DNA from: Asticcacaulis sp. EMRT-3
GTDB lineage: Bacteria; Pseudomonadota; Alphaproteobacteria; Caulobacterales; Caulobacteraceae
NCBI RefSeq assembly: GCF_030027245.1
Contig: NZ_JASERT010000001.1
Span: 579,001 to 643,000 of the forward strand
Direction of reading: 5' to 3'
DNA length: 64,000 nt
Shown here: piece by piece, positions 38,971 to 41,263 of the stretch
How the letters are laid out: every line of letters begins with the position of its first letter
Numbering within the stretch: position 1 is the stretch's first letter
The notes under the pieces: model-generated
Database searches by the model: none
What the model was told of the DNA's origin: nothing
The model's input: only the letters and a program-made list of their open reading frames with translations
Program-made: the position numbers and the translations under genes

Positions 38971-40458
38971 ATGCACGATATTAAAGCTCTGCGCGAAAAT
39001 CCGGACATGTTCATCGAGGGCTGGACGCGGCGCGGACGCGACTCTGCCGCCAAGGATGTGCATCTGGCCGTCAGCCTCGATGGTGAACTGCGCGCCGCCC
39101 AGACGGCCTTCCAGACGGCGCAAGGAGAGCTGAAGCGAATTTCAGCCCAGATCGGTCAGGCCAAGGCGCAAAAGGACGAGGCGCGGGCCGCCGCCCTGAT
39201 GGCCGAGGTCGAAGGGCTGAAAGTTGCAATTGCCGAGGCGCAGGAGACTGAACGCGCCAAGACCGAAGCCTTGCGCGACCATCTGGCTGCCTTGCCGAAC
39301 CTGCCGTTCGATGAGGTGCCGGTCGGGGCCGATGAGCATGAGAATGTCGAGGTGCGCAAGCATGGTGCGCCGGTGAAGCTCAGCTTTGCGGCCAGGGATC
39401 ACGCCGATCTTGGCGAGGCGCTGAAAGGCCCGCTGGGGTCGATGATGGATTTCGAAGCGGCGGCGAAAATGTCGGGCGCGCGCTTTGTGGTGCTGAAGGG
39501 GCAATTGGCGCGACTGGAGCGCGCCATCGGCCAGTTTATGCTCGATGTTCAGACGACCGAGCATGGCTATCTGGAGGTCAATCCGCCGGTGCTGGTGCGT
39601 GATCACGCGCTGTTTGGCACTGGGCAACTGCCGAAGTTTGAAGAGGATTTGTTCAAGACTAAAGGTGAAAAACTAGATGTTGCTCGCAATGAAGATCTAC
39701 GTTCGTATCTAAATGGCCAAATTAAGTTTTCATTGGATAAATTGGAAGTAATAAATTTTATTGATAGGTATGATAAAATAACGAATCTTAATGTAATTGC
39801 TCAAGAATTTACTACCGCAATGCAAAAAGATAAACTGGCGGAAAGGGTTTCTAATCGTTATTACCTCATCCCCACCGCCGAAGTATCCCTAACCAATCTT
39901 GTCCGCGAAGCCATCACCGCCGAGGAGGAACTGCCCCTGCGTCTGACGGCCCTGACCAACTGTTTCCGCGCCGAGGCCGGATCAGCAGGCCGCGACACCA
40001 AGGGGATGATCCGTCAGCACCAGTTCCAGAAGGTCGAACTCGTCTCGATCACCACGCCGGAGCAATCGGGCGAGGAGCATGAGCGCATGACCAACTGCGC
40101 CGAAAACATCCTGAAAAAGCTCGATCTGTCGTTCCGCACCATGCTGCTCTGCACCGGCGATATGGGTTTCGGCGCGAAGAAGACCTATGATCTCGAAGTG
40201 TGGTTGCCGTCGCAGAATACCTACCGCGAGATATCAAGCTGCTCGAACTGCGGGGATTTTCAGGCCCGCCGCATGGATGCCCGCATCCGTAAATCCGGCG
40301 AAAAGGGCACGCGCTTTCTCCATACGCTCAATGGTTCGGGCCTGGCCGTGGGGCGCACCCTGGTGGCGATCATGGAAAATTATCAGGACGAGGGCGGACG
40401 CATCGCTATCCCCACCGTGCTGCAACCCTATATGGGCGGGTTGAGCCATATCGGCTGA
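38971..40458 (+). CDS. serS: Seryl-tRNA synthetase with an AT-rich in-frame insertion
   Basis: 495 residues; most bacterial SerRS have about 420-450. The enzyme charges tRNA-Ser. The N-terminal coiled-coil tRNA-binding arm covers about 30-110. Class II motif 1 is near [19 protein letters not shown], the TAE loop is [11 protein letters not shown], motif 2 is [21 protein letters not shown] and motif 3 is [18 protein letters not shown]. Between DLFKT and YYLIPTAEV lie 66 residues where E. coli has about 14. That part (39661-39840) is about 30% GC by my count, unlike its surroundings. The frame is intact and no other serS is visible, so it is presumably functional. Its 3' end recurs three more times downstream. 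Confidence 0.96.
39656..39852 (+). other. AT-rich in-frame segment inside serS
   Basis: About 66 codons ([15 protein letters not shown] ... [11 protein letters not shown]) with AT-rich codons (AAA, AAT, TTA, ATT) in place of the GC-ending codons on both sides. It is predicted mostly helical with charged residues. The base composition changes within a few codons at each edge. No stop, intein or ribozyme motif, or terminal repeats are seen. Confidence 0.85.
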
Positions 40459-40470
40459 GTTTTGAAAGCA

Positions 40471-40536
40471 AGAACCCCCACCACCATCTGCGCTGCGCTT
40501 GATGGTCCCCCTCCCCATCGAAGATGGGGAGGTATA
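40471..40536. repeat. REP-like palindromic repeat, array copy 1
   Basis: AACCCCCACCACC, a small dyad ATCTGCGCTGCGCTTGAT, GGTCCCCCTCCCC, the hairpin loop ATCGAAGAT and GGGGAGGTATA. The stem CTCCCCATC/GATGGGGAG is perfect. Confidence 0.85.
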
Positions 40537-40546
40537 AGGTGAAGGG

Positions 40547-40694
40547 GCGCTTTCTCCATACGCTCAATGGGTCGGGGCTGGCCGTGGGACGCACTTTGGT
40601 GGCCATCATGGAAAACTATCAGGACGAGGGCGGGCGCATCGCTATCCCCGCCGTGCTGCAACCCTATATGGGCGGGTTGAGCCATATCGGCTGA
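40547..40694 (+). pseudogene. serS 3'-end fragment, copy B
   Basis: In the serS frame it reads [20 protein letters not shown] and on to the same GGLSHIG and stop. Compared with serS it has eight synonymous changes and one replacement (Thr to Ala in IPTVLQ/IPAVLQ). No start codon or ribosome-binding site precedes it; the upstream frame is the repeat spacer. Confidence 0.9.
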
Positions 40695-40706
40695 GTTTTG
40701 AAAGCA

Positions 40707-40772
40707 AGAACCCCCACCACCATCTGCGCTGCGCTTAATGGTCCCCCTCCCCATCGAAGATGGGGAGGTATA
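40707..40772. repeat. REP-like palindromic repeat, array copy 2
   Basis: Same as the copy at 40471, with CTTAATGG in place of CTTGATGG in the first dyad, which breaks one of its pairs. Confidence 0.85.
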
Positions 40773-40782
40773 AGGTGAAGGG

Positions 40783-40930
40783 GCGCTTTCTCCATACGCT
40801 CAATGGGTCGGGGCTGGCCGTGGGCCGCACCCTGGTGGCCATCATGGAAAATTATCAGGACGAGGGCGGGCGCATCGCTATCCCCACCGTGCTTCAACCC
40901 TATATGGGTGGGCTGAGCCATATCGGCTGA
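40783..40930 (+). pseudogene. serS 3'-end fragment, copy C
   Basis: The same 49 codons and stop as serS. All differences from serS are synonymous (GGT/GGG, GGC/GGG, GGG/GGC, GCG/GCC, CTG/CTT, GGC/GGT, TTG/CTG and similar); it keeps Thr in IPTVLQ. No start signal. Confidence 0.9.
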
Positions 40931-40941
40931 GTTTTAAAGCA

Positions 40942-41007
40942 AGAACCCCCACCACCATCTGCGCTGCGCTTGATGGTCCCCCTCCCCATCGAAGATGGGG
41001 AGGTATA
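40942..41007. repeat. REP-like palindromic repeat, array copy 3
   Basis: Same as the copy at 40471; the spacer just before it is one base shorter (TTTTAAAG for TTTTGAAAG), a change shared with the fourth copy. Confidence 0.85.
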
Positions 41008-41017
41008 AGGTGAAGGG

Positions 41018-41165
41018 GCGCTTTCTCCATACGCTCAATGGGTCGGGCCTGGCCGTGGGCCGCACCTTGGTGGCGATCATGGAAAACTACCAGGACGAGG
41101 GCGGGCGCATCGCCATTCCCGCCGTGCTGCAACCCTATATGGGTGGGCTGAGCCATATCGGCTGA
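41018..41165 (+). pseudogene. serS 3'-end fragment, copy D
   Basis: The same 49 codons and stop. It shares Ala in IPAVLQ with copy B and GGTGGGCTG near the end with copy C, so the copies are mosaics of a common set of variants. No start signal. Confidence 0.9.
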
Positions 41166-41176
41166 GTTTTAAAGCA

Positions 41177-41242
41177 AGAACCCCCACCACCATCTGCGCT
41201 GCGCTTGATGGTCCCCCTCCCCATCGAAGATGGGGAGGTATA
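41177..41242. repeat. REP-like palindromic repeat, array copy 4
   Basis: Same as the copy at 40471. It faces an inverted copy at 41264-41323, forming a larger inverted pair with about 20 bp between them. Confidence 0.85.
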
Positions 41243-41263
41243 AGAAAAAGGTCTTCCTCAATC

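Follow-up and report, generated by a model that had tools for sequence, protein, structure and literature searches.

Behind the seryl-tRNA synthetase gene (serS) of Asticcacaulis sp. EMRT-3 lies an array of three further copies of the gene's 3' end. We give about an even chance to the reading that this array is a young tandem duplication, broken at the center of a palindromic element, in which recombination with diverged serS alleles has replaced the coding cores. The array is real and unusual; its interest lies in the old cores held by young units and, more so, in a changeable insert within SerRS itself.

The features of the locus are given in Table 1, with positions counted from the first base of the window, the whole stretch of 64,000 nucleotides that was analyzed. 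A search of the genome recovers one full serS and three serS end copies, and Pfam assigns a SerRS N-terminal domain and a class II core to the full product. Genomic neighborhood analysis places ScpA, ScpB, TatA/B and TatC on the 5' side of serS, and two CoA-transferase subunits, a pyridine-nucleotide oxidoreductase and a tetrahydrofolate dehydrogenase on its 3' side (Pfam). Among the nine proteins scanned between 35.4 and 45.1 kb, serS included, none matches an integrase family. The four ends, designated A (the functional one) to D, are each 147 nt long with the stop and encode 48 residues; all use the same stop, and none contains a frameshift or an internal stop. The original prediction described three extra ends at spacings of 236, 236 and 235 nt and, for copy B, eight silent changes and one Thr/Ala exchange relative to serS. 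Repeat comparison and site counts confirm both statements, Tandem Repeats Finder agrees (40311-41244, period 236, 4.0 copies, score 1686), and chance similarity is excluded as the source of the four copies. The copy number is taken from the assembly, a genome of four contigs in which the window lies within a contig of 2,855,210 bases.

Table 1. Features of the serS locus and of the array behind it (positions in the window)
Feature	Position	Strand	Basis or remark
serS, seryl-tRNA synthetase, 495 aa, only full copy found in the genome	38971..40458	+	Pfam PF02403 and PF00587; own-genome search
AT-rich 70-codon in-frame serS insert, hypervariable between species	39655..39864	+	GC 0.31
Copy A, functional serS 3' end	40312..40458	+	repeat comparison
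Variable core of copy A, nt 24-130; all 15 variable sites fall within this stretch of the four copies	40335..40441	+	
Spacer A: the palindromic element's left arm and the 9-nt junction GTGAAGGGG	40459..40547	+	
Mini-ORF B: GTG at the junction, then serS end, 51 codons	40539..40691	+	upstream sequence, frame
Copy B, serS 3' end; 9 differences from A (8 silent, Thr->Ala)	40548..40694	+	
Spacer B	40695..40783	+	
Mini-ORF C, same structure	40775..40927	+	
Copy C, serS 3' end; 8 differences from A, all silent	40784..40930	+	
Spacer C, 1 nt shorter	40931..41018	+	
Mini-ORF D, same structure	41010..41162	+	
Copy D, serS 3' end; 11 differences from A (10 silent, Thr->Ala)	41019..41165	+	
Complete dispersed palindromic element: left arm, 21-nt center, right arm	41166..41335	+	inverted pair; minus-strand self-match; partial genome matches

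The four ends vary at 15 sites, 14 of them silent and one a Thr/Ala exchange. The latter separates A and C (Thr) from B and D (Ala) and falls at residue 35, the most variable residue (five states) among 24 relatives. The expected silent share of random mutations in this stretch is only 25-31%, and under neutral decay a silent share of 14 in 15 has a P value of 5e-8 to 9e-7; with the two sites private to A set aside, 12 of 13 are silent (P 7e-7 to 8e-6). The decay across all sites that is expected of unselected tandem partial duplicates is therefore not seen (P at most 9e-7). Any two copies differ by 7-10 silent codons, inside the range of the closest species pairs of the genus. The pattern supports the view that the ends bear the marks of functional serS evolution. 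The original prediction had objected to random decay and proposed a count of synonymous and non-synonymous differences over the four ends, and this count bears the objection out.

The non-coding parts of the array behave differently. Across the spacers of 89, 89 and 88 nt, one substitution and one 1-nt indel occur in total, so that 14 of about 37 silent sites vary versus 1 of 79 spacer sites (P 2e-7; 1e-6 with the indel included). Five close species served as a control, limited to species that can be aligned behind serS: their ten pairs, with 4-12 silent codon differences, carry 2-12 substitutions in the 77-80 nt behind the gene, the fewest at the smallest silent distance. The six array pairs, with their 7-10 silent codon differences, carry 0-1 spacer substitutions in 78-79 nt. 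A further 13 control pairs, excluded from this comparison for poor alignment behind serS (30-86 gap columns), show 4-17 substitutions over 37-65 aligned nt. The 9-nt junction and the constant edges of the copies, neither of which belongs to the palindromic element, are likewise unchanged from unit to unit. Since selection on a peptide would not freeze a spacer, the units are most simply recent duplicates whose coding differences came from elsewhere.

Variation within the copies is confined to a core. The edges (nt 1-23 and 131-147) are invariant, although relatives vary there (P about 0.013-0.014). A constant edge of such length occurs in none of 10,626 quartets of relatives, nor in any of the 17 quartets with 10-22 variable sites, and its probability after thinning to 15 sites is 0.044; these are modest tests (P 0.013-0.044) of edges defined post hoc, but their outcome fits the spacer result. 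Two-against-two splits occur at seven sites, of which four or more cannot be reconciled with any one tree. Simulations lacking recombination reached four conflicts in 3 of 5173, 31 of 5402 and 49 of 4984 runs for three inner branch lengths (at most 1%, counting runs with 12-18 variable sites). Conflicts that are so rare in tree-like simulations point to recombination among the copies, most simply conversion of the core. Sites 126 and 130 and the spacer indel have the same split, AB versus CD, so some exchange or duplication crossed the edge of the core too. The mosaic sharing of variants that had been read from the sequence is thus substantiated. Of the proposal that the ends evolved as working serS ends before being arrayed, or through conversion, the functional marks and the recombination stand; the arraying of whole old alleles looks less likely, because old cores between near-identical edges and spacers argue for conversion of recent duplicates.

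The original prediction saw palindromic repeats in the near-identical spacers; each spacer is one half of a palindromic element, its left arm. Within the array unit the element is cut off near its center, past TATAAG, and the following serS end starts there. Hits of the array query are dispersed through the genome (at least 65, with 40 of 91 candidates scored), a figure that also counts the array's own hits and palindromic sites on both strands. By eye, the element also lies directly behind serS, in single copy, in at least three relatives (G002, G009 and, in reduced form, G022). It is 75% identical to the array element in G002 (178 nt) and 89% identical in G009 (53 nt), so the element is not frozen in general. 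The only further relative serS locus that matches it, in G021, does so over 30 nt. Elsewhere in the same genome (L164, 10180-10248), an element arm is 97% identical to the array spacer over 69 nt, which suggests recent spread of the element or exchange between copies.

On the reading we favor, a duplication would have joined the last 147 nt of serS to the center of the palindromic element just behind the gene, a place where replication may be apt to switch strands; the origin would then be palindrome-mediated. The array would subsequently have expanded to four units. The almost identical spacers, junctions and copy edges would make the duplication recent, and the coding cores of about 107 nt older than the array. 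These cores would have been exchanged by homologous recombination (gene conversion or short imports) and shuffled between copies, the putative outside donors being serS alleles whose divergence from each other is similar to that between related species. Nearly all differences would be silent because every core came from a working serS gene, and the spare copies probably have no job of their own. Several points weigh against this reading. No donor turned up among the 24 relatives, the edge tests are modest, and some exchange was not confined to the cores. Core replacement in several copies within only about 147 nt of homology is demanding, and the microhomology expected at the junction is not cleanly seen by eye. 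Furthermore, the 97% identical arm elsewhere means that homogenization between elements, instead of youth, could keep the spacers alike, although the junction and the copy edges, which lie outside the element, are constant as well.

The serS gene itself contains an AT-rich insert (GC 0.31 versus 0.61 in the rest of the gene), located between a 13-residue stretch and LIPTAEV. The solved SerRS chain 6r1m, from E. coli, has 6 residues between the aligned parts. Within Asticcacaulis, 18 of 25 genomes have 42-85 residues at this site (GC 0.31-0.47, open frame) and seven have 9. Among 48 genomes of other genera of the family, a non-random choice from a ranked list, the stretch that starts at LPKF comprises 28-127 residues in 19 and 11-12 in the others. 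In five close species, the serS flanks are 87-96% identical before the insert (up to 330 nt; 210 nt in G015) and 91-96% identical after it (330 nt). The inserts themselves are no more alike than codon shuffles: in all ten pairs their identity lies within the range of 50 shuffles, the nearest to exceeding it being G004-G006 (66.1% versus a shuffled maximum of 66.7%). The 37 inserts collected fall into 28 classes at a phmmer E below 1e-3, a threshold that remoter kinship may escape, and four classes are common to more than one genus. At E 0.001, none of the 389 other genomes of the family contains a match to the EMRT-3 insert. Seven insert pairs can be aligned: the two nearer ones have dN/dS values of 0.14 (silent sites near saturation) and 0.05, indicating purifying selection, two distant ones have 0.43 and 0.49, and three are saturated. 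Judged from these comparisons, the inserts are translated, apparently have a function and are replaced wholesale. Unrelated inserts between well-conserved flanks make recombination into serS look common in the genus, a plausible context for the exchange of array cores. In close species, the 330 nt after the insert show roughly the same similarity as the C part overall, so the tracts imported with inserts look short. Among the listed titles and abstracts on seryl-tRNA synthetase and on synthetase inserts, from a collection with few subscription journals, none concerns a SerRS insert of this hypervariable kind. Long open frames of the same genome contain further AT-rich dips (L165 7816-8700, L159 17101-17385, L153 17851-18030).

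Several other explanations of the array can be weighed against this evidence. Simple slippage or duplication, with the copies then decaying neutrally where they stand, would fit the tandem geometry, but it is hardly credible, being rejected by the silent bias (P 5e-8 to 9e-7) together with the nearly unchanged spacer. Selection on the copies as translated mini-genes would account for the silent bias: B, C and D each have an open frame with a start, no stop or frameshift and a share in the 14 of 15 silent changes, and GGGGAGG lies 6 nt upstream of the mini-ORF GTG. We nevertheless disfavor it as the main cause and consider it improbable. The untranslated spacer is far more conserved than the silent sites, of which peptide selection gives no account, and in the C-D spacer, the only one folded (40925-41040), every base of GGGGAGG is paired within the arm of a strong hairpin (-47.6 kcal/mol, z -3.5). 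Moreover, the three mini-ORF starts share one junction sequence and amount to a single observation, and other genomes with a match to the serS end have no extra copy. An artefact, in which the alleles of several strains were strung together or the copy number is wrong, is similarly doubtful. The copies do resemble alleles of one gene and their number rests on the assembly, but collapsed alleles would not be expected to leave four copies that all differ, joined by non-native junctions that are the same all three times, inside one contig of 2,855,210 bases, and the contamination estimate is 1.07.

Two further readings give the copies a history or a purpose. The array could record the replacement of serS alleles, such that whole alleles, selected for their insert, took over from the resident one several times, with the end then in use duplicated on every occasion, B-D being former working ends. 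The wholly different inserts of close species (flanks 87-96% identical; 28 classes among 37) and ends as divergent as those of related species speak for it, whereas the constant edges point to short exchange of cores, not replacement of whole ends, and the import tracts look short, since the 330 nt behind the insert are no more or less alike between close species than the C part in general; we regard it as unlikely, though deserving some weight. A programmed bank of replacement serS 3' ends is very unlikely. The copies are in frame, near-identical in protein and adjoin the gene, but with a single residue between them a swap would give almost no new phenotype, and the other 368 family genomes that have a match all lack the array. 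The original prediction had likened the array to such a store. Its description of the array was accurate, and the marks of functional evolution, recombination and the break at the palindrome all hold; the store of replacement ends finds no support, given the same peptide apart from Thr/Ala and no array elsewhere in the genus or family.

The array is rare in the genomes searched. No extra serS-end copies were found in the 24 other Asticcacaulis genomes (25 searched). At E 1e-8 the 48-residue end matches in 369 of 390 family genomes (21 are without a match), with four copies only here and no array among the other 368. The sole other genome with two matches, G332, has a contig break with overlapping ends and not an array. 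This count of one array is a lower limit, as many family genomes are drafts in which such an array could be lost. The serS end matches 140 of 147 loci examined, and more than one match occurs only in three loci, all of which cover this array. A habit of forming tandem arrays across the genome was rejected: 394,119 bases of other stretches, a non-random set around element hits that includes a masked run in L162 (GC 0.02), hold one array of period 40 or more. A second tandem array in the window (4149-4467, period 145, 2.2 copies) begins at the stop codon of the ORF at 3594-4154, and one in L153 of the same genome (12276-12617, period 113, 3 copies) lies outside the listed ORFs of at least 100 aa.

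Searches for a donor returned no close allele. Among the 24 relatives, none of which is another strain of this species, the smallest distances to A, B, C and D are 16, 21, 18 and 21 nt, respectively; serS alleles matching B-D, or other copy numbers, which the original prediction had proposed to look for, do not occur in this set. A second SerRS gene as donor was rejected, none being found in the genome at E 0.001. The 48-aa end gave tally counts of 20 phage and 82 plasmid records, none with 80% identity or more; the array DNA matches seven plasmid records, none covering 80% of the array, and the exact 32-nt junction is absent from the viral contigs. Origin at a former serS-surE junction was also discarded: by eye, a tRNA-like stretch precedes the distant surE, and 3,780 bases there contain no element match. 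In several relatives surE follows serS; here the two are 111 kb apart and a second surE-like gene is present (L213, L214). The listed titles and abstracts, including those on partial duplications and intergenic palindromes, yielded nothing on an array of serS ends. The passages on serS in a Staphylococcus paper concern it only as the neighbor of an engineered site (PMC3274448).

The insert is the larger result. Strong conservation is the rule among aminoacyl-tRNA synthetases, and yet here a single site in SerRS holds in-frame, AT-rich inserts that have nothing in common from one related species to another. It is conceivable, but improbable, that serS of Caulobacteraceae is an arms-race locus, its insert swapped between species under attack by a phage product, toxin or antibiotic, with the array ends of EMRT-3 acting as landing pads that give incoming alleles of varied sequence a matched downstream end. 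In the phage collection, 23 records match SerRS, including seven jumbo phages of Brevundimonas, a genus of the same family. Domovoi (L215 4001-5308) and Kikimora (L216 3995-5296) have their own SerRS without the insert, and in the other five the SerRS match spans 1263-1278 nt, leaving no room for one. A search of viral contigs with one phage SerRS returned no relative. Large Brevundimonas phages carry 24 or more tRNA genes, and the words 'tRNA synthetase' are absent from the paper that describes them (PMC10070969). With so many tRNA genes, the phage synthetase may simply serve translation. The papers listed on Brevundimonas phages and phage defence contain nothing on a SerRS insert at title and abstract level. 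The phage SerRS is thus a lead for an arms race over SerRS and nothing more. If the insert does reflect attack on SerRS, a concrete search for the attacker becomes possible, and the jumbo Brevundimonas phages with their own SerRS are one place for it. The array, for its part, shows within one assembly a duplication whose age can be distinguished from that of the alleles it contains.

Compared with known systems, the array shares features with several. Like a tandem partial duplication or minisatellite (VNTR), it repeats a unit of constant length head to tail, and the unit takes in part of a gene; unlike a VNTR, its coding parts have diverged as far as alleles of related species while its non-coding parts are near-identical. 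Many genomic copies of an inverted-repeat element, present behind serS and at many other places, recall MITE-like or REP-like elements, which are the subject of reviews (PMC2229807, PMC10969869), but here one arm has been multiplied together with a gene end. Integrative elements that enter the 3' ends of genes restore the end and would bring diverged functional 3' ends beside the gene; in contrast, the nine neighboring proteins include no integrase, and the array units are 236 nt long with no other gene inside. The silent cassettes of Neisseria pilS/pilE and Borrelia vlsE are partial gene copies that lack a promoter and lie next to the expressed gene; their edges are constant and their cores vary. 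The serS array, known here from one assembly, likewise comprises partial copies beside the gene with constant edges (a weak test when thinned), a variable core and mosaic sharing of variants. Unlike those cassettes, it offers a single Thr/Ala exchange among four copies as its whole amino-acid variety: its variation is almost entirely silent, and the gene it adjoins is that of a housekeeping enzyme.
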